From Paenibacillus riograndensis SBR5 (GTDB lineage Bacteria; Bacillota; Bacilli; Paenibacillales; Paenibacillaceae), in the NCBI RefSeq assembly GCF_000981585.1, contig NZ_LN831776.1, positions 1,193,001-1,257,000 of the forward strand: a stretch of 64,000 nt of DNA, written 5' to 3'. The translations under genes and the position numbers were made by a program. Shown piece after piece: positions 478 through 57,167 of this stretch. Under the pieces are notes generated by a model, which saw only the letters and a list, made by a program, of their open reading frames with translations, searched no databases and was not told the origin of the DNA. Position 1 is the stretch's first letter, and every line of letters starts with the position of its first letter.

Positions 478-662
478 TATTTGATGCAGTTAAAAGGCTG
501 TGTAACCCCCCTGTTTTAGCTGTAATTGCATTTTGTACTCTTAAAAATGGCAGTTGGCGCTAATTTGCTGAAATGCAGCTTTTTTAATTGTACGAAGTGC
601 AGCTAGTTTCGTTTTAACACCGATATCGTCACTTATAATTGTACAAAATACATTTGCGAGAT
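478..662. repeat. Four-unit phased intergenic element, TGTAC/GTGCA type (copy C1)
   Basis: Four related units have their core pentamers at 484 (ATGCA), 535 (GTACT), 597 (GTGCA) and 648 (ATACA). The spacings are exactly 51, 62 and 51 bp. Units resemble TTGTACaaaGTGCAnnTAG. The copy at 31205-31397 has the same motif with spacings 52, 62 and 51. Looser TGCA motifs continue upstream (335, 349, 387), so the whole gap 315-690 may be degenerate repeat material. No coding potential is seen here. Confidence 0.6.
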
Positions 663-694
663 GAACACGGAGGGTTAACAGATTTTTAATGGCA

Positions 695-719
695 AGTAGT
701 CAGTAGTCAGTAGTCAGTA
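695..719. repeat. Short tandem repeat AGTAGTC x3
   Basis: Three exact tandem copies of the heptamer AGTAGTC (695-715) are followed by a partial fourth. It lies in the 588 bp non-coding gap before the next gene. No function is evident; it could be a slippage-prone tract. Confidence 0.8.
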
Positions 720-902
720 CATGTAACTTGTAGCCAATAAGCGTAACAGCCACCGTAACTACTAACCATAGCTATAACCACTAATCTGTATCAGCCCTCA
801 ACATAACCCTGAAGCAGAAAAGCAGTGCCGGCAAAAAGTTTTTTGTGCAAGCCATATTATATATAATGGAAGCATTGCTTGAATTCGGAGGAGGCGGTTG
901 TG

Positions 903-1430
903 ATGGCAGAAATGGATCGGATGAACGGGGGAGAACATGCGGATAATTTTAGGGAGAGGAAACATTCGGGAAAGTGGAAGAAGCCAGCCATGACGAAAAT
1001 TTTCCTGACTCTTTTCCTGCTCGGGATTGCTGTGTTTGTGGTGGGGACGATTCTGCAGTCCTTCACGTCCTTCGAGAAACGTGTGTCCGGACGGATTAAC
1101 CTGAACGAGATTACTTCTATTGAAATCATCCGCTCGTTGCCCTCGACAACTGACGAAGTGAAGGTCACTGTGACCGACCCTGCAAAAATAGCGGACATCA
1201 TGAATGCTTTTGCCGGTGTCAAATTGATGAGCTCCAGCATTTCCCACGATTTCAACAGAAGCTATTGGATTAGTATCATTGTAGGCAAATCCTTAAGGTT
1301 CGGCATTCGCCTGGACGACCAAAAGTATATTAACATTAATGACTTGGCCAGAAAGGACAAATACGGCAGCGGGTCTTTTAAGATCATCAATCATTATGAC
1401 ATGCGCTCTATTGACAGCCTGTTCGACTGA
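903..1430 (+). CDS. Hypothetical single-pass membrane protein
   Basis: A protein of about 175 residues. ATG 903 is chosen because GGAGGAGG lies 8-16 bases upstream; an upstream TTG at 879 would overlap that site. The N-terminal 30 residues are charged and lysine-rich, one hydrophobic helix follows ('IFLTLFLLGIAVFVVGTIL', about residues 34-52), and the remaining 120 residues would be extracytoplasmic. The C-terminal part alternates beta-like segments ('EVKVTVTDPAKIADIMNAF', 'RSYWISIIVGKSLRFGIRL'), suggesting a small folded domain outside the membrane. I do not recognise the family. A TATAAT at 863-868 may be its -10 element. It is monocistronic. Confidence 0.75.
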   Translation: MAEMDRMNGGEHADNFRERKHSGKWKKPAMTKIFLTLFLLGIAVFVVGTILQSFTSFEKRVSGRINLNEITSIEIIRSLPSTTDEVKVTVTDPAKIADIMNAFAGVKLMSSSISHDFNRSYWISIIVGKSLRFGIRLDDQKYININDLARKDKYGSGSFKIINHYDMRSIDSLFD

Positions 1431-1490
1431 GTTGGCGGATTCCATTGACTTGCAGATGCCCCGCGCCTATGATGATTAATAATAAAAAAA

Positions 1491-1709
1491 CTATATAAGC
1501 TGAACTTTAAAATGAAATCATAAAGGGGGAAGTAACGGAGGGGAAGTTTGGAACTGCAGGAGCGAACGCGTCCGCCTTTATGTTTGGATTTCTACCGCAA
1601 ATAACGGTTAAAATCAAGAAATCTAAACATAACAGCGGCCGGAAGTCCAAACATTCCCCGCAGTGTACGGCTAAACCCCAGAATGGAAAATTTAAGTTCA
1701 GCTTATATC
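1491..1709. repeat. Long palindromic intergenic element, family A (copy A1)
   Basis: Terminal arms ATATAAGCTGAACTT (1493-1507) and AAGTTCAGCTTATAT (1694-1708) are perfect inverted repeats. Inside are a second pair, TTATGTTTGGATTTCT (1578-1593) with AGAAATCTAAACATAA (1617-1632), and a small apical hairpin ACCG/CGGT (1594-1608). GGGGAAGTTTGG-like and CCAAACATTCCCC-like segments also pair, so the entire element can fold into one long imperfect hairpin. Related copies lie at 39848-40108 and 56761-56979, with a half copy at 27846-27908. It ends 28 bp before the CYTH gene start. There is no transposase or convincing ORF. Confidence 0.75.
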
Positions 1710-1737
1710 AGTGAAACGCACAGAGGAGAGAGACAGC

Positions 1738-2232
1738 ATGGCTATGGAGATTGAACGCAAGTTCCTGCTGCCGGAGTACCCGGAGCGGCTGATTCAGGAA
1801 GGCCAGGTGCAGGTGCTTACGCGGCACAGCATTGACCAGACTTATCTGGCGATTGAGGACGGGCAGGAGCTGAGAGTGCGCAAGATCACTGATCTGGATT
1901 CGGGCGAGATTACGTATACCCATACCTTCAAGGACGGCAAAGGCATCAGCCGCAAGGAGATCGAATATTCCATCTCTGAGGGATTATATAACCAGATGAT
2001 CGAAGCCGTGAAGGCTGTACCGCTGGTGAAGACACGCATTACCGGCATTTGGAACGGCACGACCGTAGAGATTGACCTCTATACCCAACTGGAACTGACT
2101 GTGCTGGAGGTTGAATTCGATTCGCTGGAGGCGGCGGAGAGCTTCGTAGCCCCCGGATGGTTCGGCAAGGATGTCAGCGTGGACAAGAAATACAGTAACA
2201 AAACCGTCTGGAAAGAGCTGCAGAACAAATAA
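1738..2232 (+). CDS. CYTH domain protein (triphosphate tunnel metalloenzyme family)
   Basis: 164 residues from ATG 1738, preceded by GAGGAGAG at 1722-1729; the frame is open a few codons further upstream without a better site. The N-terminal signature ExExK is present as E4-I-E6-R-K8. Alternating acidic and basic strands ('ELRVRKI', 'YTHTFKDGKG', 'TTVEIDLY', 'VLEVEFDS') fit the eight-stranded tunnel fold. Family members include inorganic triphosphatases, thiamine triphosphatases and class IV adenylate cyclases; short stand-alone forms like this are usually triphosphatases, but the substrate cannot be told from sequence. It stands alone, with a family A element immediately upstream. Confidence 0.85.
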   Translation: MAMEIERKFLLPEYPERLIQEGQVQVLTRHSIDQTYLAIEDGQELRVRKITDLDSGEITYTHTFKDGKGISRKEIEYSISEGLYNQMIEAVKAVPLVKTRITGIWNGTTVEIDLYTQLELTVLEVEFDSLEAAESFVAPGWFGKDVSVDKKYSNKTVWKELQNK

Positions 2233-2411
2233 CGTGAAGCTGCCCTGCGGCATCCTATGGATACGCAAAAGTTAACACAGAAGTAACGGACTTTAACGCT
2301 TAAACGTGTTAATATAGAATGAGCTTAGGCGCCGGGCAGCACGGGTACATTTTCTGCACATCAGCCTATACAAGGGTTAACTACAGAGGGGTTCAGGAGG
2401 ATGAGAGAGGT

Positions 2412-3800
2412 ATGGAGTATATAAGCACAAGAGGCAATGTAGAAGCTAAGGGCTTTATTGATACGGTTCTGATGGGGCTGGCGGATGACGGCGGGCTCAT
2501 GGTGCCTTTTCGGATTCCGGTAATTTCCCCTGAGAAGCTGGCGGAATGGCGGAGCCTGAGCTTCCAGGAGCTGTTCCTTGAAATTTTCTCGTATTATACC
2601 AATGATGAAATTCCCTACGAAGATCTAAAAGAAATGGTCTACACCAGCTATGCCAATTTCCGCGCGCCGGAAGTAACGCCGCTGCACCAAGTAAATGATT
2701 CCTTGTATGTGCTGGAGCTGTTCCATGGGCCTACTTTTGCTTTTAAGGATGTAGCGCTGCAGTTCATGGGCGAGCTGTATTCCTACATTTCCCGCAAGCG
2801 CGGCGAGGTTATTCATATCCTTGGTGCTACCTCGGGGGATACGGGGGCGGCTGCCATCCAGGGGGTCCGCGGCAAGGAAGGCATCAAGATCTGCATTCTG
2901 CATCCGCACGGCAAGGTCAGCAAGGTGCAGGAGCTGCAAATGACGACAGTGGACGACAGCAATGTGCTGAATCTGTCTGTTGAAGGCAATTTCGATGACT
3001 GCCAGAAGGTGATTAAGGAACTGTTCGCCGATCTGGATTTTAAGGGCAAATATCACCTGCGGGCGATCAACTCGATCAACTTCGTGCGTATTCTGGCGCA
3101 GACGGTCTATTATTTCTATGCCTATCTGCAAATTGAGGACAGCGATAAGAAGAAGATCAACATCAGTGTGCCATCCGGCAATTTCGGCAACATTTTCTCC
3201 GGTTATTTGGCGAAGAAGATGGGATTGCCGATTCACAAGCTGATTATCGCCACGAATGAAAACAATATCCTGGAACGGTTCGTGAACACCGGTGAATATA
3301 AGCCGGGAAGCTTCACGAGCACCTACAGCCCTTCGATGGATATTCAGGTGGCCAGCAACTTTGAACGGTACCTCTATTACCTGGTGGGCGAGGATGCGGA
3401 GAAGCTCTCTGCCCATATGTCCAAGCTGCAGACCGAAGGGAAGATTACTATCGCGGGCGAAGCACTGCAGCAGGTGCAGGCTGATTTTGCCGCGCTGGGT
3501 GTGAAGAACCAGCAATGTCTGGATACGATCGGGAAGTACAATAAAGAGTATGATTATCTGCTCGATCCGCATACGGCCTGCGGTATTGCAGCATACGAGA
3601 AGTTTAACGGCGCAGGGGAAACGGCCATTACTTTTGCGACAGCCCATCCGGCCAAATTTGACGAGGCTATCGCCTTGGTTGATATCAGGCAGGAGTTCCC
3701 AGAGCAGATTGCGGCCTTGTTCTCGCTGCCACAGCACCAGACGGTAGTGAAGAATGATAAAGATGTGATCGTACGCGAGCTGCAGGCTTTTTACGAATAG
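2412..3800 (+). CDS. thrC: Threonine synthase
   Basis: 462 residues. ATG 2412 starts 'MEYISTRGNVEAKGF', the usual beginning of long-form threonine synthase, with AGGAGG at 2395-2400. The enzyme makes L-threonine from O-phosphohomoserine using PLP. The Schiff-base lysine is K112 in 'GPTFAFKDVALQ', and the phosphate-binding loop reads 'TSGDTGAAA' (about 140-148). The substrate-side segment 'SVPSGNFGNIFSGY' is also present. It stands alone without hom or thrB and is followed by a strong terminator. No T-box leader is evident in the 180 bp upstream. Confidence 0.95.
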   Translation: MEYISTRGNVEAKGFIDTVLMGLADDGGLMVPFRIPVISPEKLAEWRSLSFQELFLEIFSYYTNDEIPYEDLKEMVYTSYANFRAPEVTPLHQVNDSLYVLELFHGPTFAFKDVALQFMGELYSYISRKRGEVIHILGATSGDTGAAAIQGVRGKEGIKICILHPHGKVSKVQELQMTTVDDSNVLNLSVEGNFDDCQKVIKELFADLDFKGKYHLRAINSINFVRILAQTVYYFYAYLQIEDSDKKKINISVPSGNFGNIFSGYLAKKMGLPIHKLIIATNENNILERFVNTGEYKPGSFTSTYSPSMDIQVASNFERYLYYLVGEDAEKLSAHMSKLQTEGKITIAGEALQQVQADFAALGVKNQQCLDTIGKYNKEYDYLLDPHTACGIAAYEKFNGAGETAITFATAHPAKFDEAIALVDIRQEFPEQIAALFSLPQHQTVVKNDKDVIVRELQAFYE

Positions 3801-3842
3801 AACAGTCTCCCGGCTGTCTTCTGCAAGCTTCCGACATACTGT

Positions 3843-3880
3843 AACGGCCCCCGTTCCTGGGATTAGGACGGGGGCCGTTT
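3843..3880 (+). terminator. Intrinsic terminator after threonine synthase
   Basis: Inverted repeat AACGGCCCCCGT / ACGGGGGCCGTT with a 14-base loop, ending in TTT. It lies 42 bases after the thrC stop codon. Confidence 0.8.
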
Positions 3881-4097
3881 GGCGTATAAAAGGCATCTGA
3901 AGCGCATCGGCAAAGCGGATTGATTCTACCGTTTCCAAATTTTTGTAAATTATTGGGTTTTATGTAAGGTGCTTTTTTTCACATTCTCAAACAGCAGAAT
4001 TTGTCGGAAAATTGCCCCAGAAAAGTGGACATCCCTACCCTGGAGTGAGAAAATAGCATGTAGAGTCAGTACGAACTAAAAAGGACGGGATCACTTC

Positions 4098-5084
4098 ATG
4101 ACAATTCGATTCGGGGTTATTGGAACCAACTGGATTACAGACCGTTTCATTCAAGCGGGTCTTGAGAATGAGGAATTTATCCTTACTGCTGTATACTCCC
4201 GTACGGAGGAGAAGGGGCGCGATTTTGCGGCAAAATATGCTGGCGCTTCCATATATACCAATCTGGAGAAAATGGTGGCCAGCGAGGAAGTGGATGCGGT
4301 ATATATTGCCAGCCCCAATTCGATGCATGCTGAACATGCGCTTGTCTGCATGAACCACGGGAAGCATGTGATCTGTGAAAAGCCTGCGGCCTCCAACAGC
4401 GCGGAGCTGCGGGCGATGATCGAAGCGGCGCGGGACAACGATGTGCTGTTTATGGAAGCGATGAAATCCACCTTTATGCCGAACTTCGGGGTGATCCAGG
4501 ACAACCTGTACAAGCTGGGACAAGTGCGCCGTTATTTTGCCGGTTATTGTCAATATTCATCGAGATATGATGCTTACCGCCAGGGGACTGTGCTGAACGC
4601 TTTCAATCCGGCCTTTTCCAACGGGTCCCTGATGGATCTGGGCATCTATTGCCTGTATCCGATGGTGGCGCTGTTCGGCAAACCGGAGTCGGTGCGGGCG
4701 GTAGGCCTGATGCTGGCTTCCGGCGTAGACGGCGAGGGCAGCATTGTGATGCGTTATCCGGATATGGATGCCGTAGTCATGCATTCCAAGATTGCCGACT
4801 CCTATCTGCCTGCCGAGATCCAGGGGGAGAACGGCACGATGGTGATCGACAAGATCAACCAGCCTTACCAGGTCAAAATCCACTACCGCGACGGTACGGT
4901 GGAGGAACTTACCCTGCCGCAGGTATTCGAGCCGATGTATTATGAGGTAGAGGAATTTATCCGCCTGATCCGGAGCGGGCAGCGCGAGAGCAGTGTGAAC
5001 AGCCATGCCAATTCGCTTGCAGTCGCTGAGGTCATGGAGGAAGCCAGAGCACAGATCGGCCTCCGCTATGCCTCGGACCTGTAG
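4098..5084 (+). CDS. Gfo/Idh/MocA family NAD(P)-dependent oxidoreductase
   Basis: 328 residues. The Rossmann dinucleotide site is near the start ('FGVIGTNWI', residues 5-13), and the family EKP motif is at residues 94-96 ('CEKPAAS'). The C-terminal half contains the 'GSLMDLGIYCLYP' helix, which usually carries the catalytic His/Tyr region in GFO_IDH_MocA proteins. Members oxidise or reduce sugars, inositols or dihydrodiols; the substrate is not predictable here. The ribosome binding site is weak (AAGGACGGGA). A radical SAM gene follows after 39 bp, so the two may be co-transcribed. A second paralogue lies at 41220-42218. Confidence 0.9.
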   Translation: MTIRFGVIGTNWITDRFIQAGLENEEFILTAVYSRTEEKGRDFAAKYAGASIYTNLEKMVASEEVDAVYIASPNSMHAEHALVCMNHGKHVICEKPAASNSAELRAMIEAARDNDVLFMEAMKSTFMPNFGVIQDNLYKLGQVRRYFAGYCQYSSRYDAYRQGTVLNAFNPAFSNGSLMDLGIYCLYPMVALFGKPESVRAVGLMLASGVDGEGSIVMRYPDMDAVVMHSKIADSYLPAEIQGENGTMVIDKINQPYQVKIHYRDGTVEELTLPQVFEPMYYEVEEFIRLIRSGQRESSVNSHANSLAVAEVMEEARAQIGLRYASDL

Positions 5085-5123
5085 CTGAAGCTTTTGAACG
5101 AATTTTGAAATGGGGAGCGGAAC

Positions 5124-5999: not shown

Positions 6000-6113
6000 A
6001 GCTGTTCTTTGAAATAGAAGTACACGAACATTTATAAGAATTACGGATAAGACCGATATTGATATAGAATATACTTTTTTTAGTATATGCATATACAATT
6101 TAGGAGGTAACCT

Positions 6114-16372: not shown

Positions 16373-18694
16373 ATGAAATTTACAGACGGCCTCTGGCTGG
16401 TTCGCGACGGAATCAATATCAATGGTGCGGTTCAGAACTATGTGGTAGAAAAAACTGCCGAAGGTTTGACCGCTGTTACGCAGACAACTCCAATTACAGG
16501 ACGCGCGGCAACACTGAACTCTACGCTCCTGACTGTGAAATTCCATTCCCCGCTTCCGGGTGTGGTAGGCGTTAAGATTATTCATAATGATGGCGTAGTG
16601 GACCATGGTCCGGCCTTTGAATTGACCAAGGGTACCGGCGATCATGTCCAAATCGAAGAAACCGAAGCACAGACCGTGCTGATCAGCGGCGGGCTTCGTG
16701 TGGTGATCAACAAAGGCACACACTGGTCCGTGGACTTCTACCGGGGCGACGAGCGGATTACCGGCAGCGGTTTCAAATCGATGGCCTACATTACAGACCA
16801 GGACGGCAACACGTTTATGCGTGAAGAGCTGGATCTCGGCGTAGGCGAATTCGTCTATGGTCTGGGCGAGCGCTTTACAGCTTTTGTCAAAAACGGACAA
16901 GTGGTAGACATCTGGAATAAAGATGGCGGCACCAGCTCCGAGCAGGCCTACAAGAACATTCCGTTCTACGTAACAAGCAAGGGCTACGGCGTATTTGTTA
17001 ACCACCCGGAACTGGTTTCGTATGAAATCGCTTCGGAAAAAGTGAAAAAAGCCCAATTCAGCGTAGCAGGCCAAAGCCTGGAGTACTTTGTCATCGAGGG
17101 ACCTTCCATTAAGGAGGTTATTACTAAATATACCTCCCTTACCGGCAAGCCTGCGCTGCCTCCGGCATGGACTTTCGGCCTGTGGCTGACGACTTCGTTC
17201 ACTACCGACTACGATGAAGCGACTGTCAATTCCTTCGTAGAAGGCATGGCCGAACGGGATCTGCCGCTGCATGTTTTCCACTTCGACTGCTTCTGGATGC
17301 GTGAATACCAATGGACCGATTTCCAATGGGACCCGCGCGTATTCCCGGACCCGGTCGGCATGCTGAAACGCCTGAAGGAAAAAGGCCTGAAAATCTGCGT
17401 GTGGATCAACTCTTATATCGGACAGCGCTCACCGCTGTTTGAAGAAGGCAAGAAAAACGGCTATCTGATCAAAAAAGCAAACGGCGACGTGTACCAGACC
17501 GATCTGTGGCAGGCGGGCATGGGACTCGTGGATTTCACGAACCCTGCGGCTTGTGAATGGTATGCAGGCTACCTGCGTGATCTGGTGGATATGGGCGTAG
17601 ACAGCTTCAAGACGGACTTCGGCGAACGGATTCCAACCGATGTGGTGTATTTCGACGGCTCCGATCCGCAGAAAATGCACAACTATTACACACAGCTGTA
17701 TAACAAGGTGGTCTTTGAAGTACTGGAAGAGAAGCTGGGCAAAAATGAAGCCGCCGTATTCGCGCGCTCGGCAACGGCCGGCGGGCAGCAGTTCCCGGTT
17801 CACTGGGGCGGCGACTGTTACGCGGACTACGAGTCGATGGCAGAAAGCCTCCGCGGCGGCTTGTCGCTCGGCCTGTCCGGCTTCGGCTTCTGGAGCCATG
17901 ATATCGGCGGCTTCGAGAATACGGCTCCGGCGCATGTATTCAAACGCTGGCTGGCGTTCGGCCTGCTCTCCAGCCACAGCCGCCTGCACGGCAGCACTTC
18001 GTACCGCGTGCCTTGGGCATACGATGACGAAGCCGTGGATGTTACCCGCTTCTTCACCAAGCTCAAGTGCAGCCTGATGCCTTACCTGTATGATGTCGCC
18101 GGACAGGCACATGAACAGGGCTGGGCCTCGATGCGTGCAATGGTTATGGAGTTCCCGGAAGATCCGACTTGCGAAATTCTGGACCGTCAATACATGCTGG
18201 GAGATTCCCTGCTGGTTGCTCCGATCTTCCAGGAGAACGGCGAAGTGAAATATTATCTGCCGGCTGGCCGCTGGACCCACCTGCTTAGCGGTGAAACCGT
18301 ACAAGGCGGATCATGGCGCAAGGAAACATATGATTTCTTCAGCCTTCCGCTCTTCGTCCGCCAGAACTCGCTGCTGGCTATCGGCAGTGTGGATACCCGT
18401 CCGGATTATGATTTTGCCGATGGCGTGAAATTCGGCCTGTACTCGCTGGAAGACGGTGCGGCAACAACTGCAACGGTCCGTGACATCAAGGGCGCGCCTG
18501 AGCTGACCGTTAAGGCTGAGCGTAAAGGCAGCACCATCTCCGTTACCGCCGAAAGCAGCGGCAAGGCCTTCACCCTGGCTGTGAAGGATCTGGGCACGAT
18601 TGCCTCCGTGAATGGAGCAGAACTGGCAGATGCATCTACAGTGAGTGTAAAAGCAGGGGCGAAGTCCGTAGCATTCACCATTACACTGAACTAA
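16373..18694 (+). CDS. yicI: GH31 alpha-xylosidase (YicI type)
   Basis: 773 residues from ATG 16373 ('MKFTDGLWLVRDG'), with AAGGGTGG upstream; the frame is open further upstream but that part covers the promoter. Length and motifs match the E. coli alpha-xylosidase YicI (772 residues). The catalytic nucleophile is D415 in 'FKTDFGERIP', and the acid/base is probably D481 in 'HWGGDCYADYESMAESL'. 'GLSGFGFWSHDIGGFE' completes the active site. There is no signal peptide, so it acts in the cytosol on imported alpha-xylosides such as isoprimeverose. A strong terminator follows; the divergent AraC protein probably controls it. Confidence 0.93.
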   Translation: MKFTDGLWLVRDGININGAVQNYVVEKTAEGLTAVTQTTPITGRAATLNSTLLTVKFHSPLPGVVGVKIIHNDGVVDHGPAFELTKGTGDHVQIEETEAQTVLISGGLRVVINKGTHWSVDFYRGDERITGSGFKSMAYITDQDGNTFMREELDLGVGEFVYGLGERFTAFVKNGQVVDIWNKDGGTSSEQAYKNIPFYVTSKGYGVFVNHPELVSYEIASEKVKKAQFSVAGQSLEYFVIEGPSIKEVITKYTSLTGKPALPPAWTFGLWLTTSFTTDYDEATVNSFVEGMAERDLPLHVFHFDCFWMREYQWTDFQWDPRVFPDPVGMLKRLKEKGLKICVWINSYIGQRSPLFEEGKKNGYLIKKANGDVYQTDLWQAGMGLVDFTNPAACEWYAGYLRDLVDMGVDSFKTDFGERIPTDVVYFDGSDPQKMHNYYTQLYNKVVFEVLEEKLGKNEAAVFARSATAGGQQFPVHWGGDCYADYESMAESLRGGLSLGLSGFGFWSHDIGGFENTAPAHVFKRWLAFGLLSSHSRLHGSTSYRVPWAYDDEAVDVTRFFTKLKCSLMPYLYDVAGQAHEQGWASMRAMVMEFPEDPTCEILDRQYMLGDSLLVAPIFQENGEVKYYLPAGRWTHLLSGETVQGGSWRKETYDFFSLPLFVRQNSLLAIGSVDTRPDYDFADGVKFGLYSLEDGAATTATVRDIKGAPELTVKAERKGSTISVTAESSGKAFTLAVKDLGTIASVNGAELADASTVSVKAGAKSVAFTITLN

Positions 18695-18728
18695 GAATAG
18701 GCATTCTGAGGAATTCCCGAAAGGAACA

Positions 18729-18789
18729 AAAACCTCTCTGTCCGGCGGCCGCCTGCAAAGGCGTCCCTGCCGCCCTGAGAGGTTTTTTT
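18729..18789 (+). terminator. Intrinsic terminator after yicI
   Basis: Stem AACCTCTC / GAGAGGTT with an internal GC-rich paired region, ending in seven T. Confidence 0.85.
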
Positions 18790-18960
18790 GCTGTGGGGGA
18801 GCTTGTCCGGCTGCGCGCTGAAGCTGTCTGGAAAGGGACATTCCACCCGTTCAAGATCAAAATTGTGTTATATATCGGCTGAATCGTATTAGTTTCATGG
18901 CTATAATGTCCGTATACTGTGATTGTTTACAGATTAGCACGGATGAAGGAGCTACTTCAC

Positions 18961-20142
18961 ATGTACAGTCAAGAGAACCAAGCCAGTGTGTTCAGCCAGT
19001 CTGAGTACACCTCGGCTATGGCGCTGTCCACAGCGGCCAATTACATCATGAACTGGGCGGAACCGTTCACCCGCACCTACCGGACCTACATCCGTCTGCG
19101 CGAGAATGGGAGCCTGACCCTGAAATTCTGGCACAGCAATGCGGTGGATTCCACCTGGGATCTGGGCGTTGAAGCAAGAGGGAGCGAGCCGGGAGGGAAA
19201 TGGAGCATCGAGGCGGCGTACATCGCCGACGGAGGGCTGAAGCCGGATGGTACGGTCATGCAAGGCTCGCAAGTGCCCGTAACTTTCTTGGGAGAAACAG
19301 CCAAGCAAGTGGCACCAGGGGAAGCCTTTTGGAGTGACGAAGCGGCGCTTGTGCTGCCGGAGGGCCACTATCTGGCTTTTACCTGGACGATTAGAACGGC
19401 TGCTCCCGGCAAAACCTTCCCGTACAATGTGGAGGGGATGCTCGTCTCTGCTTATGATGCTCCCGGGAATCACGCCGGTCAGGAAACGAACGCTGCCTTC
19501 AGCGAATCGGACAAGCTCCTGGTGCTGCCAAGCTATATCGGGTATAAGAAAAAGGTGGATAAAAAGCTCGTATTCCTGGGAGATTCCATTACACAAGGGG
19601 TGCGGACCGCAAAGGATGAGTATTCCTACTGGGCGGCACGGATTGCCGAAGGGCTTGGAACCGGGTATGGGCTGTGGAACCTCGGATCAGGGTGGGGGAG
19701 AGCGTATGACGCGGCCACTGACGGCGCCTGGCTGAATAAGGCGAAGCAGGGGGATGAGGTGCTGATCGTGCTGGGTGTGAACGATCTCGATATCGGCAAG
19801 CGCTCTGCGGCAGAGCTTCTAGCAGACCTCGCCTTCATCGTCTCTTCTATCAGAGAGGCTAACCCGGACGTGGAGATCATCCTGGGCACCGTGCCGCCGT
19901 TTAACTTCGAAGGCGAGCGGGAGGAGGCCTGGAGGTGTGTGAATACGCAGATTCTTACGGCTCCGCCGGCGGGGGTTAACCGCGTATTTGATATCGCAGC
20001 CGTGCTGTCCATGCCGGCTCCATTGGACCATAAAGTCCGCGCGGAGTATATGAGCAATACGGACGATCCGCATCCGAACGGCACCGCCGGTAAGGCGGTG
20101 GCGGACGCTTTTCTGAAATGGTACGGGGAAACCATCGGTTAA
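18961..20142 (+). CDS. SGNH/GDSL-type esterase with N-terminal jelly-roll-like domain
   Basis: 393 residues from ATG 18961 (AAGGAG at 18946-18951; an upstream frame extension lacks a site). Residues 1-190 look like a beta-rich accessory domain ('TYIRLRENGSLTLKFWHSN', 'YLAFTWTIRT'). The catalytic SGNH domain follows: block I 'FLGDSITQG' with nucleophile S209, block III 'GVNDLDIG', and block V 'DDPHPNGTAGKAV' with the Asp-x-x-His pair. No signal peptide is seen. Such proteins in sugar regions are commonly carbohydrate acetyl esterases. It lies between yicI and other glycan genes, and a TATAAT at 18902 with a TATTAGTTT motif just upstream hints at co-regulation. Confidence 0.88.
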   Translation: MYSQENQASVFSQSEYTSAMALSTAANYIMNWAEPFTRTYRTYIRLRENGSLTLKFWHSNAVDSTWDLGVEARGSEPGGKWSIEAAYIADGGLKPDGTVMQGSQVPVTFLGETAKQVAPGEAFWSDEAALVLPEGHYLAFTWTIRTAAPGKTFPYNVEGMLVSAYDAPGNHAGQETNAAFSESDKLLVLPSYIGYKKKVDKKLVFLGDSITQGVRTAKDEYSYWAARIAEGLGTGYGLWNLGSGWGRAYDAATDGAWLNKAKQGDEVLIVLGVNDLDIGKRSAAELLADLAFIVSSIREANPDVEIILGTVPPFNFEGEREEAWRCVNTQILTAPPAGVNRVFDIAAVLSMPAPLDHKVRAEYMSNTDDPHPNGTAGKAVADAFLKWYGETIG

Positions 20143-27912: not shown

Positions 27913-28110
27913 CCTTAGTGGGAAAAAGTACCACTAATCAAGCTCATTTAGCTTATGGAGCAGCCTATGTTGGAAAAAGTACCACTAATTCGGCTGAAAG
28001 TGGCCGTATGGGGGAAATAGGCATGAATTAGGTGGACGAAATCCCACTAAAACCTTCTGTAGCCCGGATTTCAGCGAATTAGTTTTACTTTTTCCACTTA
28101 GCTTCAGTCC
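27913..28110. repeat. Four-unit phased intergenic element, GTGGAAAAAG type (copy B1)
   Basis: Units with GGAAAAAG at 27921 and 27972, a diverged forward unit GGACGAAAT at 28034, and an inverted unit CTTTTTCC at 28088. The spacings are 51, 62 and 54 bp. Unit consensus here is TTGGAAAAAGTACCACTAATT. It lies in the 408 bp gap between convergent genes ending at 27759 and 28168. Confidence 0.65.
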
Positions 28111-31153: not shown

Positions 31154-31204
31154 AAAACGCCGTAGTCCTCTTTTTGGATAACTATTGCGGTGGATCTTTT
31201 ATAT

Positions 31205-31397
31205 GAGTGCACTTTGTGCAATAGAAAACTTTTTTATTCTGCATAGAATCGCCTTCTCCTGTATTTCGTGCAACAGATTTGCGGATTTGGAGTCAAAAAC
31301 TGCTTTTCCAGCGGATTCAAATGTACAAAGTACATTAGATTGAGTTTTTCGGCCGATTTATGGGTCATCAGCTGTACAAAGTGCAATAGATGGCGGG
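31205..31397. repeat. Four-unit phased intergenic element, TGTAC/GTGCA type (copy C2)
   Basis: Core pentamers GTGCA at 31216, GTGCA at 31268, GTACA at 31330 and GTGCA at 31381, spaced 52, 62 and 51 bp, all in the same orientation. The unit consensus is TGTACAAAGTGCAATAGAT. It has the same geometry as copy C1 (484-652). It lies between the GH42 gene and the candidate toxin locus. Confidence 0.7.
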
Positions 31398-32896: not shown

Positions 32897-33062
32897 AGGA
32901 GGAATAGAAGAGGCAGCTCTATGATTACTTCCATATGTGGATAAAAATATGCTTGAAGTTGTGTAACGAGCAACGGCAGAAATACCGTTGTAGGAGTAGC
33001 GAAGGCCGAGTTCTGAGGGGGTAGCCGGTCTAGCAATTACTTTCCGGTTTCTTCGCAGGTGC

Positions 33063-33248
33063 TAGTTGGAAAAAGGGAGCTTATTTTTCCGGATATCAAG
33101 AAATCCTGAGAGTTAAGTGGAAAAAGTAAACTTAATTGGGCTACTTTTCTTGTCCAATGGCGAAATGAGCTGAATTAGTGACCCTTTTTCCACTTCATCT
33201 GCCCGAGGATAGGGTACTCCGGCAAATTAGGCTCCCTTTTTCCACCTA
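33063..33248. repeat. Four-unit phased intergenic element, GTGGAAAAAG type (copy B2)
   Basis: GGAAAAAG at 33068 and 33119 and inverted CTTTTTCC at 33184 and 33236, spaced 51, 65 and 52 bp. The sequence aligns along its whole length with copy B3 (56976-57167), including the central GGCGAAATGAGCTGAATTAG. It lies in the 448 bp gap between convergent genes. The rest of the gap (32897-33062) holds nothing recognisable. Confidence 0.75.
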
Positions 33249-33302
33249 AAGAGTTGCCGCAGGATTCATGGGGAATCGTTCTCCAGGTAACGCTAGAACC
33301 AA

Positions 33303-33343
33303 GACGGCTGCACTGTCCCATGGAGGACGGCACAGCCGTTTTT
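33303..33343. terminator. Intrinsic terminator, possibly bidirectional
   Basis: ACGGCTG / CAGCCGT arms with inner TGTCC / GGAC pairing, followed by five T on the plus strand. On the minus strand it begins 2 bases after the amidase stop, with a weaker T tail. Confidence 0.65.
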
Positions 33344-33344
33344 G

Positions 33345-36077: not shown

Positions 36078-36262
36078 GTTCCGGACACAGGAGCTCTTAT
36101 TTCGCAGAATTCTTCTGTTCAGCCATTCTTGCGGACTGAGAATACGTTATTTATGCCCATTCCCCTTCATACGTATCATTTGAGCTCAACTAACGTCTTC
36201 TGAGTCCGCATTCCCGGCAAAATAGAGGTTTTGAGCCTAATAAGGGCTCTGTAGTCCGCATG
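36078..36262. repeat. Four-unit phased intergenic element, TGCGGACT type (copy D)
   Basis: Two forward units (GGACAC at 36083, GGACTG at 36133) and two inverted units (AGTCC at 36203 and 36253). The spacings are 50, 70 and 50 bp, the same forward-forward-reverse-reverse plan as copies B2 and B3. The unit is TGCGGACTcAGAanacGTTATT. The two central units alone could form a hairpin with a stem of about 20 bp. It lies between convergent genes ending at 35934 and 36291. Confidence 0.6.
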
Positions 36263-39847: not shown

Positions 39848-40108
39848 ACTATACAGAGTGAACTTGAAAAACGAACAAAAGGGAAAAGGGATGGAGGGGA
39901 AGTTTGGATACTTACGGAGCGAATGCGTCCGCCTAAAAGCTTTCCTACGGAAAGCTCGCTATCTTCAGCATAGGCAGTCTGCGGATTTCCACCGCGAACA
40001 GCGGTACAAATCAAGAAATCTGCAGATGGGCAGCGGCCGGAAGTCCAAACATTCTCCGGAGTCCCGACGAAGTCCCTAATGTAAAGATCTTAAGTTCACT
40101 CTATATAG
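39848..40108. repeat. Long palindromic intergenic element, family A (copy A2)
   Basis: Terminal arms CTATACAGAGTGAACTT (39849-39865) and AAGTTCACTCTATATAG (40092-40108) match at 16 of 17 positions when inverted. Inner arms are TCTGCGGATTTC (39978-39989) and GAAATCTGCAGA (40015-40026). Compared with A1 and A3 it carries an extra insertion of about 45 bp with its own hairpin (AGCTTTCC-TAC-GGAAAGCT near 39938-39956). Together with the following terminator it fills the 402 bp gap between YceI and the Nudix gene. Confidence 0.75.
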
Positions 40109-51730: not shown

Positions 51731-51772
51731 TCAGAAGGACAACTTCATGAAGACAGCGAAGGAGAGACGCCT

Positions 51773-52267: not shown

Positions 52268-52310
52268 TATGAGCAAGTGTAACTAAACTTTAGAGTGGAT
52301 GTACAAAAGA

Positions 52311-52342
52311 GAGAGGGTGTCCCAAATGGGATGCCCTCTTGC
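52311..52342. terminator. Bidirectional terminator between GNAT and MFS genes
   Basis: AGAGGGTGTCCC / GGGATGCCCTCT stem with an AAAT loop and a TTGCC tail. A nearly identical hairpin closes the other side of the MFS/TetR pair at 54339-54373. Confidence 0.75.
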
Positions 52343-52356
52343 CGTGAGTGTAGAAA

Positions 52357-53535
52357 TTATCTGGAATCCTTGCGGATTCTGGAAGAACATAGTGCAAAGA
52401 CAAGCGCCAGGGCACTGACGAGCGTGCCTAGCAAGCATACCCCATTCCATCCTGCGTAACCGTAGACCCGGGTGGAGGCGATGGAGCCGGTGGCGCTGCC
52501 CAGAGAATAGAAAATCATATAACCGGCAGTAAGTCTGCTGCGTGCTTCGGGCCGCACCTTGAAGATCAGGCTCTGGTTGGTGACATGTACGGCTTGTACC
52601 GCCAGATCCAGAACGATAATACCTATGGCTAAAATAAAAAGCGAATGCTCTGCGCGGCTGATCGGCAGCCAGGACAACAGCAGGAGACCTAGGGCGATGA
52701 CGGTGGTATGCTGGCCGAAGCCCCGGTCTGCAAGCCTCCCTGCCTTGGCTGCACCTAAGGCTCCGGCTGCTCCGGCCAGACCGAACGCTCCGATAGCGGT
52801 ATGCGAAAGTGAATAAGGCGGTGCACTGAGGGGCAGCACCAGCGGGGTCCATAATATGCTGAAAGCGGTAAAAATTAAGAAAGCGAGAACGGCGCGCACC
52901 CGCAATATTTGTTCATGGGCGAACAACAGGAACACGGAATGAATCAGATTCAGGTAGGACAAGGATTTCTTGGCGGTCTCTACAGAAGGAAGTACTTTGT
53001 ACAAGGCAGCGGCCATAAGCAGTGTCATTCCCGCAGATGCCAGGTATACAGCCCGCCAGCCCGCCACGTCCGTCAATAAACCCGCAAAAGTCCGCGCCAG
53101 CAGAATCCCTATCACGATTCCGCTGGTCACCAGACCAACCACCCGCCCCCGCTCGGCAGGAGAGGCGAGACTCGCCGCGAACGCTACGAGTGTCTGCGCA
53201 GCAACAGCGAGTAATCCTATCCCCGCTATGCCTATGGACAGCATAGTTCCGCTTGAGGCAGTTCCAACTATTAAAAGAGCCAAGACGGATAACAGCATCT
53301 GTCCGGTGATTAAGCGGCGCCGATTCAGCAAATCGCCAAGCGGAACCAGCAGCAGCAGTCCTGCCGCATAACAGATTTGAGTAAGCGTGATGATAATGCC
53401 GACTGCAGAATGCCGGATACCGAACTCCGCGGCGATGGCATCCAGTAAAGGCTGCGCGAAATAGATGTTGGCGACGGAAAGCCCGCTGGCGGCTGCAAAC
53501 AAGAGGGCAGTCTTTTGCGAAATTGAAGGGATCAA
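52357..53535 (-). CDS. MFS transporter (DHA1-like efflux family)
   Basis: 392 residues from TTG 53535 (AGGAGTG upstream). Twelve hydrophobic helices; motif A between helices 2 and 3 reads 'PLGDLLNRRRLI'. 'ANIYFAQPLLDAIAAEFG' is the opening of a subfamily of small-molecule efflux proteins related to NepI and YtbD. It is divergent from a TetR gene across a 200 bp region with repeated operator-like sequences, a common drug-efflux arrangement. The substrate is unknown. Confidence 0.9.
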   Translation of the reverse strand: MIPSISQKTALLFAAASGLSVANIYFAQPLLDAIAAEFGIRHSAVGIIITLTQICYAAGLLLLVPLGDLLNRRRLITGQMLLSVLALLIVGTASSGTMLSIGIAGIGLLAVAAQTLVAFAASLASPAERGRVVGLVTSGIVIGILLARTFAGLLTDVAGWRAVYLASAGMTLLMAAALYKVLPSVETAKKSLSYLNLIHSVFLLFAHEQILRVRAVLAFLIFTAFSILWTPLVLPLSAPPYSLSHTAIGAFGLAGAAGALGAAKAGRLADRGFGQHTTVIALGLLLLSWLPISRAEHSLFILAIGIIVLDLAVQAVHVTNQSLIFKVRPEARSRLTAGYMIFYSLGSATGSIASTRVYGYAGWNGVCLLGTLVSALALVFALCSSRIRKDSR

Positions 53536-53571
53536 TTGCTGTTCACTCCTAAAAAGTATTGTGGAATCATA

Positions 53572-53722
53572 ACATACTGATCGGTATATAAAGATTCCCG
53601 ATTAATATAACCTTGAGAAATAAAAAATGTCAATATCCATCCATGAATATAAGGGGGATCGGTATAACGATTGACAGTCCGTACTTGAATAATTAGAATA
53701 ATAACATACCAATCGATATGTA
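53572..53722. promoter_or_regulatory. Repeated operator-like sites between the MFS and TetR genes
   Basis: Site 1 (53572-53589) and site 2 (53704-53722) share ACATACnnATCGnTATnTAA, an imperfect palindrome; site 1 is near the MFS start and site 2 is just before the TetR start. A central site ATCGGTATAACGAT (53658-53671) has related arms. Such paired sites fit autoregulation by the TetR protein. Confidence 0.6.
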
Positions 53723-53735
53723 AAGGGATGAAGTT

Positions 53736-54326
53736 ATGGTACGGCCACGTGAGTTCGACGAAGAGAAGGCGCTGCATGCTGCCATGCAGATTTTTTGGGA
53801 AAAAGGCTATGAAGCGACATCGCTAAGCGACCTTACTGCGACAATGGGCATTCAGCGGCCAAGCATCTATTCAGCTTTCGGGGACAAGAAGGGTTTGTTT
53901 GAAGCGGCCTTGCGGATGTATACCAAATCCCATGCGGCCAGTGTGCGGGCCAGCCTTCACAAGAAAGCTTCTGTGAAGGCAGCCTTCCGCGCTTTTTTTG
54001 AACATTTGGTGGAGGAAGAGTACAGGGAAGAAGGTTCGAATAAAGGCTGCTTCTGCATCAACACAATGGTAGAGCTATCACCGCATGATGCGAAGTTTGA
54101 GATACTGACCAGAGAACACCAGATGTATCTTGCCGTGATTTTTCAGGAAACGCTTGAACGGGGAATACAGTCAGGGGAGCTTGATTCCGGTACGGATGCC
54201 AAAGGGCTGGCCCATTCGCTGGTCATTGCACTGATTGGGCTTACTGTAATGATGAAATGCCGTCCCGAGCGGAATTTTATGGATCAGGCTGTATATTCGA
54301 TGCTTAGCAGTAACGGCTTATATTAA
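53736..54326 (+). CDS. TetR-family transcriptional regulator
   Basis: 196 residues, ATG 53736 after AAAGGGATG. The N-terminal helix-turn-helix contains 'TSLSDLTATMGIQRPSIYSAF' followed by GDKKGLF, the standard TetR recognition helix. The ligand domain starts near 80 and includes 'GCFCINTMVELSP'. It probably represses the divergent MFS gene and itself via the sites at 53572-53722. Confidence 0.93.
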   Translation: MVRPREFDEEKALHAAMQIFWEKGYEATSLSDLTATMGIQRPSIYSAFGDKKGLFEAALRMYTKSHAASVRASLHKKASVKAAFRAFFEHLVEEEYREEGSNKGCFCINTMVELSPHDAKFEILTREHQMYLAVIFQETLERGIQSGELDSGTDAKGLAHSLVIALIGLTVMMKCRPERNFMDQAVYSMLSSNGLY

Positions 54327-54338
54327 GTGTGTAAAAGC

Positions 54339-54373
54339 AAGAGGGTGTCCCTACAGACCGGGACACCCTCTTG
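54339..54373. terminator. Bidirectional terminator between TetR and rRNA methyltransferase genes
   Basis: Perfect 13-base stem AAGAGGGTGTCCC / GGGACACCCTCTT with an 8-base loop. It serves convergent genes ending at 54326 and 54382. Confidence 0.8.
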
Positions 54374-54381
54374 GTGTTAGG

Positions 54382-55281
54382 TTATGAAGGCAACTTCCTG
54401 CCCTCCAATACACTCAGATCCACCGAAATCTCCAGTTCATTCAGTTGGAGCACGGTCTGAAGCTTGTTTTGGGCCGCAGCCCAGGACAAGGGAGTCATAC
54501 GTACCAGCTGCTGAAGGAGAGGTGGCTGTAGGCTGACCTTGTACTGAAAGTGCCGGGCCTCGGTGATTTCAAAAGTCTCACTAAAGCGTTCGCGGATTTC
54601 GCTGTCCGCGTTCGGTTGTTGTCTGCTTGAGCGTCCATAGAGCAGTTCGCGCAGCTCCTGAAGATAGTTTTGTCCGGGAATGACTTTGATGACTCTCCCG
54701 TCAGCAGTAAGCAGCCGCTGAAATTCCGCATAATTGGAAGGGGACAGGATGTTGAGAATCGTATGAAACTGCCCGCTGCCAAAGGGGGAGTGAGCAAGGT
54801 CGCCTACACACCAGAGGGTGCTTGCGTTATTGTTCTTGGCAGCGAGCGCGATGCCTTCCTTTGAGATATCGAGTCCCACTCCAAGCAGTGACTGGTGCGG
54901 GCCAGCCGCCGCGAGTTCCTGAATGGCTGCCAGATGCGAGCCTTCCCCGCAGCCGGCGTCGAGAATCCGGTGCGGACCGTTACCGGCAAGCTTCCGGCCC
55001 GCAATCAGCCCGGAAATATAGGTGTCAACGGGTTCAAAAAACCCGCCGTTTACGATTGCTTTTCTGGAGGCAAACAGCTCTTTGCCGTATTTTCCTCCCG
55101 CCGGGCGGGAGAGCAGATTGATATATCCGTTCCTGGCCAGGTCAAAGCAGTGATGATTGCTGCAGATCAGGCTTTTATACTCGGTCAGGCTCATGGGACT
55201 TGCGCAAAGCGGACAGCAGAACAGTCTCGGATTAGCAGCCATAAGCCCGGCGAGAATCATTTTTTTCGTTGTTGTGGACAT
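54382..55281 (-). CDS. rlmA: 23S rRNA (guanine-N1)-methyltransferase, RlmA/TlrB type
   Basis: 299 residues from ATG 55281 (GGGGTG 7 bases upstream); an ATG five codons earlier lacks a site. The N-terminal zinc ribbon reads 'CCPLCASPM' and 'ICSNHHCFDLARNGYINLL', typical of RlmA enzymes. The SAM-binding motif I is 'ILDAGCGEGSHLAAI', followed by 'GVGLDISKEGIALAA'. RlmA(II)/TlrB methylates N1 of G748 in 23S rRNA, near the macrolide tunnel site, and TlrB gives tylosin resistance. The 5' leader has an attenuator with a short macrolide-arrest-like peptide. Confidence 0.9.
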   Translation of the reverse strand: MSTTTKKMILAGLMAANPRLFCCPLCASPMSLTEYKSLICSNHHCFDLARNGYINLLSRPAGGKYGKELFASRKAIVNGGFFEPVDTYISGLIAGRKLAGNGPHRILDAGCGEGSHLAAIQELAAAGPHQSLLGVGLDISKEGIALAAKNNNASTLWCVGDLAHSPFGSGQFHTILNILSPSNYAEFQRLLTADGRVIKVIPGQNYLQELRELLYGRSSRQQPNADSEIRERFSETFEITEARHFQYKVSLQPPLLQQLVRMTPLSWAAAQNKLQTVLQLNELEISVDLSVLEGRKLPS

Positions 55282-55315
55282 GTGAAAACACCCCATTCAT
55301 TCGTTATGGTTGAAT

Positions 55316-55387
55316 GAAAAAGGCACAAACAAATAAACCCGGGTCCTTGTCTTTTCAAAAAAAGACCGGGTTCAATGTAATGTGCCT
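55316..55387 (-). terminator. Leader attenuator hairpin upstream of rlmA
   Basis: On the minus strand the outer arms AGGCACA (55381-55387) and TGTGCCT (55321-55327) enclose inner arms AACCCGGTC (55364-55372) and GACCCGGGTT (55336-55345). A T tract follows (55317-55320). An alternative small hairpin GTCTTTT/AAAAGAC lies inside. It sits between the leader peptide stop and the rlmA start, so it would end transcription before rlmA unless disrupted. Confidence 0.7.
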
Positions 55388-55391
55388 CTCA

Positions 55392-55421
55392 TTAACGTAA
55401 ACGAATGAATTTTATGATCAT
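55392..55421 (-). CDS. Leader peptide MIIKFIRLR for rlmA attenuation
   Basis: A 9-codon ORF on the minus strand, ATG 55419-55421 to TAA 55392-55394, with TTGGAG 9 bases upstream of the start. The peptide ends Arg-Leu-Arg, the '+X+' motif known to arrest macrolide-bound ribosomes in ErmDL-type leaders (MRLR). The stop codon lies 4 bases before the first arm of the attenuator hairpin, so a ribosome stalled at the last Arg would cover that arm and let transcription continue into rlmA. The mechanism is inferred. Confidence 0.65.
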   Translation of the reverse strand: MIIKFIRLR

Positions 55422-55465
55422 GGCCGCTCGCTCCAATTCGAAAAGTAGGGGGAGACCCCTTTTCC

Positions 55466-55493
55466 AATATAGCATTATTGGCCGCCGGGTCAA
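55466..55493 (-). promoter_or_regulatory. Promoter for the rlmA leader
   Basis: On the minus strand TTGACC (55488-55493), a 16-base spacer, and TATATT (55466-55471) with a TG extended -10. The start site would be about 35-40 bases before the leader peptide ATG. Confidence 0.6.
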
Positions 55494-55567
55494 AGAGGCA
55501 GGAGAATATTCCCTTGTGGCGAATCCTATCTAGATGATGTTCAAGTTTGAGGAAAAGAGGTTTTGTC

Positions 55568-56710
55568 ATGTCCCGAACCTTTCAGGTGATGCTGAAAAAG
55601 GTAGTCGATGACTCCTACGCGATTGAGATTGGGGAGCAACTGTTCGATTCGCTGATTGCGGATTTGCAGCAAGGATTGGTGCCGAATGTGAGCAAATACG
55701 CCATTATTACAGATTCTACGGTAGAGCCGCTCTATGGCCGGCCTTTGCTTGAACGGCTGCGGCAAAATGGCTTTGCGGCTGAATTGTTTTCTTTTCCGGC
55801 AGGGGAAGCGTCCAAAACCCGGGAAACGAAGGCGCTGCTGGAGGATCAACTGCTAAGCCGCGCTTACGGGCGGGACTCCTGCATTATCGCTGTAGGCGGC
55901 GGGGCGGTGACTGATCTGGCCGGATTTCTGGCCGGAACCTTTGGCCGCGGAGTGCCGAGCCTGAATTATGCGACAACGCTGCTGGCCGCAGCGGATGCAT
56001 CGGTCGGCGGCAAAACCGGTGTGAATACGCCGGTGGCCACAAATCTGATCGGCCTCTTCCACCAGCCGCGTAAGGTGTACATAGATTTGGCCGCTTGGCG
56101 CACCCTTCCCGCACGTGAGTTCAGAAGCGGGCTGGCCGAAACCATCAGGCATGCGTGCCTGGGGGATGCGGATTTTTTCAGCTATCTGGAAGAGAATATG
56201 GGCAAGGTCATTTCGGATCGCGGGCAGCTCGTGCTTGATGCCGGGGTCTGTGAGCATATTGCGCTGGCCAACTGCCGGATCAAATACGAAGTCGTAGAGC
56301 AGGATGAGCGTGAGAGCAATTTGCGGCAGATTCTGAATCTGGGCCATACCGCCGGGCGGGCGCTTGAGGCGCTAAGCGGCTATACCCTGCTGCATGGAGA
56401 AGCGGTTGCGATAGGGCTGGTTGTTCAGGCTAAGCTGGGAGTGAAGCGCGGATACATGACTGAAGATCAGGCGGAGCGGTTAATTGCGCTGCTGAAGAAG
56501 GCGGGCTTGCCGACGGAAATGCCGGCTTCCATCCCGAACAGACAGCTGGTGGATAAGATGTATACCGATAAAAAAGTACGCAGCGGCCGCATCCGTTTTG
56601 TGTTCCAGGACGGGATCGGCGCGATGAAGCGTTTTGCGGATGGCTCCTATTCCATCCCGGTCGAAGAAGCCGACATCCTGGCTGCGCTGGAAGAGATGCC
56701 GCGCGTGTAG
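55568..56710 (+). CDS. 3-dehydroquinate synthase-like protein (sugar phosphate cyclase superfamily)
   Basis: 380 residues from ATG 55568 (AAGAGG upstream). NAD-binding 'IIAVGGGAVTDLAGFLAGTF', 'TTLLAAADASVGGKTGVN' and zinc ligands E191, H260 and the His of 'LLHGEAVAIGL' are all present. Two usually conserved substrate-binding residues are changed: the Lys of the AE-x-IK motif is R194 ('AETIRHA'), and the second His of GHTxGH is R264 ('GHTAGRALE'). No shikimate genes are adjacent. It may be a divergent AroB or a paralogous sugar phosphate cyclase with another product. Confidence 0.8.
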   Translation: MSRTFQVMLKKVVDDSYAIEIGEQLFDSLIADLQQGLVPNVSKYAIITDSTVEPLYGRPLLERLRQNGFAAELFSFPAGEASKTRETKALLEDQLLSRAYGRDSCIIAVGGGAVTDLAGFLAGTFGRGVPSLNYATTLLAAADASVGGKTGVNTPVATNLIGLFHQPRKVYIDLAAWRTLPAREFRSGLAETIRHACLGDADFFSYLEENMGKVISDRGQLVLDAGVCEHIALANCRIKYEVVEQDERESNLRQILNLGHTAGRALEALSGYTLLHGEAVAIGLVVQAKLGVKRGYMTEDQAERLIALLKKAGLPTEMPASIPNRQLVDKMYTDKKVRSGRIRFVFQDGIGAMKRFADGSYSIPVEEADILAALEEMPRV

Positions 56711-56760
56711 GTTTTTTTGAGGTATTAGTAGAAATCGGCCGAATTCGATCACCTTTTTAT

Positions 56761-56979
56761 TATATAGATTGAACTTGGGGAATTTAGGATTAAGTGAAAA
56801 GTGGCGGAGGAGAAGTTTGGAACTGGAGGAGTGGTAGCGTCCGCCTTTGTCTGCGGATTTCAACCGTGAACAGCGGGTTATAATCATGAAATCTGCAGAC
56901 AACAGCGGCCGGAAGTCCAAACATTCTCTGGAGTCACGGCCAATGCCAAAATCGAAAAATCTCAAGTTCAGTTTATATA
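56761..56979. repeat. Long palindromic intergenic element, family A (copy A3)
   Basis: Terminal arms TATATAGATTGAACTT (56761-56776) and AAGTTCAGTTTATATA (56964-56979) pair at 14 of 16 positions, and both mismatches would be G-U pairs in RNA. Inner arms GTCTGCGGATTTCA (56849-56862) and TGAAATCTGCAGAC (56887-56900) pair with one G-U. The right end touches element B3. It lies between convergent genes ending at 56710 and 57486. Confidence 0.75.
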
Positions 56980-57167
56980 GTTGGAAAAAGGGAGCTTATT
57001 TCTCTCAGAAATCAGTAATTATGAGATTTAGGTGGAAAAAGGGAACTTAATTGGACTATATTCCCTACTTAGAGGCGAAATGAGCTGAATTAGTTGCCCT
57101 TTTTCCACTTCACCGACGGAGAACAGGGGAATTGAGCAAATTAGTTGCCCTTTTTCCACTTGAAATT
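56976..57167. repeat. Four-unit phased intergenic element, GTGGAAAAAG type (copy B3)
   Basis: GGAAAAAG at 56983 and 57034 and inverted CTTTTTCC at 57099 and 57150, spaced 51, 65 and 51 bp. It aligns over its full length with copy B2 at 33063-33248. The unit is GTGGAAAAAGGGAACTTAATT. It is joined directly to family A copy A3. Confidence 0.75.

Follow-up and report, generated by a model that had tools for sequence, protein, structure and literature searches.

Four-site intergenic repeats with a common 51/62/51-bp geometry in Paenibacillaceae, candidate scaffolds for a dimeric DNA-binding protein

Background

The NIME/dRS3 repeats of Neisseria are 20-bp dyads with variable centres which flank repeat modules between genes, and we know of no fixed four-site geometry among them. 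Published accounts describe the repetitive extragenic palindromic (REP) sequences and bacterial interspersed mosaic elements (BIMEs) as short palindromic units with regular spacing, which are intergenic, form mosaics, reach a high copy number and are targets of insertion sequences (IS) (PMC2817692, PMC1525189). The STAR repeats of Staphylococcus are 14-bp GC-rich direct repeats of a single consensus, separated by 40 bp or more of recurring sequence (PMC3532100). BIME/REP and STAR are the nearest known kinds to the repeats analysed here, which are six four-unit elements in a 64,000-nt stretch of the Paenibacillus riograndensis SBR5 genome (the window; positions 1,193,001–1,257,000 of the single 7.92-Mb contig NZ_LN831776.1, 51% GC). 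All six were located where an earlier note on this DNA had placed them, and they represent three unit families: B (478–662 and 31205–31397), A (33063–33248 and 56976–57167, with a variant at 27913–28110) and C (36078–36262).

476..652, + strand: B-type four-site element, cores TGNA-N5-TNCA at 476–488, 527–539 (deviating in its last base), 589–601 and 640–652; spacing 51/62/51
31203..31389, + strand: B-type four-site element, core starts 31208, 31260, 31322 and 31373; spacing 52/62/51
27916..28099, + strand: A-like element with GTGG..CCAC arms, U1 27916–27938, U2 27967–27989, inverted units U3 about 28026–28050 and U4 28077–28099
33063..33247, + strand: A-type element, U1 33063–33085, U2 33115–33137, U3' 33173–33195, U4' 33225–33247
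56978..57161, + strand: A-type element, U1 56978–57000, U2 57029–57051, U3' 57088–57110, U4' 57139–57161
36078..36262, + strand: C-type element, units GCGGAC...TTATT, spacing d1 = 50

Like the BIME/REP sequences of enterobacteria and pseudomonads, the window elements are high-copy extragenic palindromic units in composites, and four A elements noticed here were targeted by an IS of the IS110 family. They differ in that no REP-associated tyrosine transposase (RAYT) flanked by units was found (8 of 12 Y1 matches checked), in that A has two forward and then two inverted units rather than alternating ones, and in that, throughout a family of bacteria, different unit words go with one spacing. Short units, recurring intervening sequence, intergenic location, variable unit number and species-specific places are shared with STAR, but the units here are dyads of several words with twofold symmetry and a fixed 51/62/51 spacing, and their words differ from the GC-rich 14-bp consensus of STAR. 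Inverted symmetry as in miniature inverted-repeat transposable elements (MITEs) is present, although no clean empty site was seen among the A loci compared. The elements also do not match an array of clustered regularly interspaced short palindromic repeats (CRISPR), with imperfect units, a 2+2 orientation and spacers common to the copies (cas genes were not searched). No report of these repeats in Paenibacillus was found in titles and abstract openings of open-licence PubMed Central.

Results and discussion

A period of 50–52 bp outside genes

The window's own genome (G000) was sampled as 80 evenly spaced 20-kb stretches together with the window (1.66 Mb); L-numbers denote single stretches examined. 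From this sample 449 kb outside called genes were compared with 650 kb of coding DNA; context counts are approximate since genes missed by the simple calling script (coding fraction 0.73) are counted as intergenic. The genome-wide spacing check proposed in the earlier note was run on this sample, and 205 of the 761 non-genic pairs of similar 20-mers lying 20–150 bp apart were at 50–52 bp (26 at 50, 121 at 51 and 58 at 52), with the pairs in coding DNA chiefly at multiples of 3 (9 at 51). Tandem Repeats Finder reported periods of 50–52 bp in 22/38 intergenic versus 0/10 genic rows with a period of at least 30, some of these rows being one array listed twice. A 2+2 scan with d1 left free between 30 and 80 placed d1 at 50–52 in 77/103 matches of the own genome and 32/37 in nine relatives, with every copy of a family counted unmerged and palindromic tandem arrays also passing; fifteen own-genome matches outside this range, at 65–68, all came from one CRISPR-like array in L054. 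That stretch (G000 1,583,905–1,603,904) contains a regular 65–68 bp repeat, GTCGCTCCTTATGTGGGAGC, which is probably a CRISPR array.

Smaller samples of the nine relatives contained 20-mer pairs at 50–52 bp as well: 14/28 in G033, 15/64 in G030, 9/65 in G015, 10/29 in G027, 4/16 in G035, 3/42 in G001, 4/12 in G007, 3/16 in G022, and 7/103 in G014, where genes were not masked.

The B core and its spread

The B core TGYA-N5-TRCA, used alone and without similarity search, was found at 263 sites in the 1.66 Mb, and these formed 137 pairs 14–200 bp apart, of which 119 fell on eight distances: 51 (29 pairs), 113 (23), 52 (21), 62 (16), 164 (9), 114 (8), 104 (7) and 165 (6). Each distance among the remaining 18 pairs occurred once or twice, and versions of the core with N4 or N6 and three control dyads (51–196 sites) formed 1, 0, 0, 0 and 5 pairs over the same 1.66 Mb. 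The nine other genomes yielded 36 pairs, mainly at 51 (9), 113 (8), 62 (5), 52 (3) and 164 (3). The G000 sample contained 14 complete four-site sets (51 ± 1, 113 ± 2, 164 ± 2); G030, G001, G007 and G022 contained a single set apiece, and G033, G015, G027, G035 and G014 none; at least 40 B matches, some of them partial, were scored in the own genome.

We aligned 16 B elements from four species (alignment A1; 13 from the own genome, including the element at 476 as row window:476-664, and one each from G001, G007 and G022). Of its 22 invariant columns, 21 are the T, G, A and T, C, A of the four cores, whereas the spacers look unrelated between species, which bears out the earlier view that geometry is conserved more than sequence. 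Site information was highest at positions −6, −5, −3 and +3, +5, +6, with position 4 tolerant. The arms are near-palindromic and the asymmetric centres point two one way and two the opposite way, so that the description of some elements as having all units forward fails for B. The earlier note had also overlooked that the elements at 478 and 31205 belong to one family, that the units are dyads to varying degree, and that the B architecture extends across Paenibacillaceae. Its spacings of 51/62/51 (at 476) and 52/62/51 (at 31208) were recovered, while its gaps of 65 and 70 partly reflect the reference point chosen inside the unit. The values 51, 62 and 51 are indeed near 5, 6 and 5 helical turns, but the proposed phasing is unproven since spacings one turn apart were not seen.

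A sequence-only model built from the 16 A1 elements (cut-off E <= 1e-4) matched 55/148 Paenibacillaceae genomes in 12/19 genera. Each of the 15 genomes listed under the window's genus, the own genome included, had at least 17 matches, where both strands of one element may count as two, and among the matches listed, all from this genus, the length was mostly 180–187 bp. Other genera, known by the number of matches and the best E-value, reached best E-values of 1e-5 to 1e-15. Among 299 genomes drawn across the phylum three matched, all of the window's genus and including the own genome; the border of this spread is approximate because strict filters drop weak matches and the E-values are rough. 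B-like elements with d1 = 51 and other letters were seen in G001, G007, G022 and probably G014. All 13 B loci inspected, from several species, were outside called genes, and B orientation relative to replication was not clearly biased (10/15 full copies, 14/24 matches).

The A family follows the replication fork

The A units at 33063 and 56976 read AGTGGAAAAAGG...CTTAATT, two forward and then two inverted. From 52 non-redundant copies all four units were located in 44, with U1–U2 at 51 bp in 40 and 52 in 3, an identical U2–U3 distance in 43 and U3–U4 at 51–52 in 42; by hand derivation, the middle gap between dyad centres is 62 here too. A-type DNA matched 9/60 genomes, own included, and all 19 named stretches that matched the A unit were from Paenibacillus jilunlii, although this set may omit near records. 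C-like elements with d1 = 50 and other letters were present in G001, G007 and G014.

GC skew changes sign from the 4.06-Mb to the 4.16-Mb stretch, which we took as the terminus, and once more at the contig ends, which we took as the origin. Placed on this map, 67 of 68 unique A loci run with the replication fork (exception 6,750,811); with weak matches included, the sample gave 50/54, and those not running with the fork include 2475079, 2475175 and 4266546 (scores 26–33). Among the A matches listed in relatives, the 13 of G030 change strand once (at 3.37–3.81 Mb), as do the 13 of G033, which all lie within its first 3.3 Mb. This polarity, overlooked in the earlier note, is not merely gene direction, because in the sample every A copy between convergent genes (15/15) is oriented with the fork; in tandem gaps with genes against the fork (few cases), the copy at 6144814 and the weaker matches at 5260660 and 3171529 also follow it. 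A is rare between divergent genes, with 0/34 stronger matches in such gaps (116 of 826 gaps were divergent). The family is strictly oriented with replication, and its gain or persistence therefore depends on fork direction.

Stretches L002, L003 and L007 have up to four direct units (TTGTAC..TACAACA) at about 52 bp downstream of an A element. Some stretches, L003 and L009 among them, have an additional inverted unit (CCTTTTTCCAACTAACGCT or one like it) about 35 bp upstream of A U1, with which it could pair.

Candidate scaffolds for a dimeric protein

We put at close to even the reading that the elements are twofold-symmetric double-stranded DNA scaffolds for a putative dimeric protein, organised like BIME mosaics. 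An element would comprise four sites of about 23 bp, which are inverted repeats of varying completeness, two per direction at 51/62/51 bp. The putative protein would read half sites (TGYA in B) and oligomerise; dimers bound on the same helical face could assemble into a single complex, leaving about 190 bp bent or looped. Protein dimers on double-stranded DNA are suggested because of the dyad half sites, the tolerant middle position, the fixed spacing and the twofold symmetry. The very many copies, placed differently in related species, point to a possible role at the level of the chromosome (organising the nucleoid, or insulating the ends of genes) rather than in local gene control, and the differing words of A, B and C may reflect paralogous or co-evolving proteins. 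Binding by an oligomeric protein, as first proposed from the letters, thus stays the leading idea. The view that the elements form a superfamily with 51/62/51 spacing is upheld as well, and overall the earlier interpretation is partly supported.

Several observations weigh against this reading. Dyads of unlike sequence had no preferred spacing, although only 37 pairs were available and power was low. Dyad symmetry is poor in C units and in many A units. An indel test, dominated by alignment noise, did not distinguish constraint on spacing from neutral change: indel/substitution ratios were 0.061 for A, 0.156 for B and 0.184 for the F1 repeats described below, compared with 0.058–0.277 in ordinary intergenic DNA, varying by relative. 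Unit number varies in relatives, where three or five units, half elements and a single collapsed hairpin occur, and other unit words make open tandem arrays of about 2–20 units with the same period. Divergent gaps are not entirely free of elements, since two of 24 B matches and two A copies (597435, score 48.7, and one in L005) were in gaps called divergent. The strand-specific signals given below for a structured RNA count on the same side.

Turnover, insertion sequences and the mobile-element alternative

A rather doubtful but serious alternative is that the elements are non-autonomous mobile elements (MITE- or REPIN-like), with doublets as inverted ends, sites that bind a transposase or recombinase, and words that expand per lineage. 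This explanation was kept because of copy number, turnover and the A strand bias: the elements combine high copy number with twofold symmetry, A is present or absent between close relatives, and a bias of 67/68 is the expectation for insertion into the lagging-strand template. B, however, is not clearly polarised (14/24).

Ten A loci were chosen for ortholog comparison and seven aligned. A was kept in G000, G033 and G030 at L004, L025 and L029, with a fifth unit in the G030 copy at L029, and was missing in G033 at L010 and L030, in G030 at L020 (compared without G033) and in both at L013. Within the window, the A element at 33063 is absent from G030 and present in G015 and G033. The G033 ortholog of 27916..28099 lacks the U1–U2 half; the element is absent from G027, and the G035 gap holds 2.4 kb instead. 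G033 orthologs have also lost units at 31205, 36078 (one unit) and 56976 (three remain), the last being collapsed to a short bare hairpin in G030. Recent duplicates run past the element (−22 to +366 and −3 to +547), and in one pair the shared sequence stops at a terminator-like hairpin. This presence and absence in orthologs, the unit loss and the extended duplicates mean that elements come and go, often inside larger mosaics. Neither a precise insertion site nor a target duplication was seen for four-unit elements among the A loci compared, which, together with duplicates that reach beyond the element ends, counts against this alternative. The following features belong to this context.

32918..33344, + strand: larger repeated block that includes the A element and the dyad unit AACGGCAGAAATACCGTT, with a terminator-like hairpin on the 3' side
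L063 8434–10196: IS110-family IS within an A element, with an interrupted open reading frame
L073 9948–11712: IS110-family IS within an A element
L077 3166–4932: IS110-family IS within an A element
L050 18509–end: IS110-family IS within an A element
1488–1711, 39850–40106 and 56758–56977 of the window: F1 elements of about 220–260 bp, inverted ends CTATATAG...AAGTTCA, TA at both ends

A halves about 1.55 kb apart had raised the possibility of an autonomous transposon, which was rejected: the insert is the IS110-family IS (Pfam PF01548 and PF02371 in the L073 copy), at the identical A-element position in the four copies noticed, further copies not having been searched for. Doublets enclosing a coding element were not noticed in the sample, in which no dedicated search was made; the split A elements noticed there hold IS110. 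A link to RAYT was likewise rejected, since none of the eight loci scanned out of 12 Y1-transposase matches (four partial matches were left out) had units on both sides when searched by the A, B and F1 profiles, the B core and the 50–52 bp pair scan; on one side only, A was present at L032 and L035, and F1 at L032, L035 and L036.

F1 itself, with TA at both ends and empty sites in relatives at 1488–1711 and 39850–40106, fits a MITE and is a family separate from the four-site elements. It had 38 matches in the sample, 33 of them oriented with replication, which had also gone unremarked in the earlier note. F1 directly abuts the outer edge of A U1 at window 56976–56978 and in L021, L087 and L089, as if the TA at that edge were a preferred F1 target.

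Structured nucleic acid and other unit words

That the elements act as structured RNA or single-stranded DNA, through unit hairpins or through U1:U4 plus U2:U3 pairing, is unlikely, and this alternative of the earlier note turned out to be the less supported one. A elements do have nested complementarity, with a fold z-score of −4.25 against shuffles on the + strand and −3.66 on the other. Mispairs of the G.T type exceed A.C in A U1:U4 (119 vs 4, by our reading largely a few fixed columns) and in the four B units (141 vs 104). The B excess, however, comes from one column (offset 4, 66 vs 10); otherwise the counts are 75 vs 94 and columns split 11 to 10, so that apart from this column the mispairs favour neither strand, a result in favour of the double-stranded scaffold. 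In A1, cells paired amounted to 81.7% for local (shuffles 79.3) and 79.9% for nested pairing (shuffles 77.6), and by cells paired and covariation score both of these mutually exclusive pairings exceeded nearly all of 500 shuffles by small margins, where the shuffles did not keep the relatedness of the sequences. The two pairings thus score about alike, and pairs changed on both sides were not above shuffles for either. Rfam gave no match in the window at the gathering score, and in 15/15 convergent gaps A follows replication and not either gene. The strand-specific fold evidence is mixed and weak.

Average-linkage clustering of the 205 non-genic pairs gave the following larger groups.

A: 78 pairs in 47 regions
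B: 26 pairs in 18 regions
E (AAAGGTATTTTTACCTTT): 16 pairs in 6 regions
C: 13 pairs in 11 regions, all at 50
T3 (AACAACGGCAGAAATGCCGTTGTT): 13 pairs in 9 regions
G (TGTTCGGTTTTTCGCATACA): 10 pairs in 2 regions
H (TTGTACGTTATACAACA): 8 pairs in 4 regions

The period of 50–52 bp is thus common to A, B, C, T3/E, G and H. Long arrays of unit words occur in L097, L115 and L069; those in L097 are 51-bp tandem arrays of the dyad TGTGTTCGGTTTTTCGCATACA at 18398–19396 (19.5 copies) and 1706–2168 (9 copies). Judging from G027, E and T3 may be a single family whose arms have changed, and a common origin of all unit words is possible. Least probable is that the elements are functionless today, being remnants of one ancestral array with a frozen period, spread by recombination and tandem duplication with words drifting in concert: units are gained or lost in about 51-bp steps (L029 in G030, the losses in G033), the period is shared with tandem arrays of other words and the indel/substitution ratio is not clearly under that of neutral DNA, but B spacers look unrelated between species around invariant cores, and B length varies by no more than a few bases among the listed genomes of this genus.

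Conclusions

Repeat families are normally known by their sequence, whereas here spacing is conserved and the letters change. More tentatively than for the scaffold reading itself, we consider it possible that the elements form a chromosome-organising system of Paenibacillaceae, in which putative dimeric proteins would occupy four phased sites with lineage-specific words, a fixed geometry and, in A, polarity with the fork. The four TGYA-N5-TRCA cores at 51/62/51 are a precise and testable bait for the candidate protein, and the replication-polarised A family offers a way to study how fork direction is sensed by a non-coding repeat.

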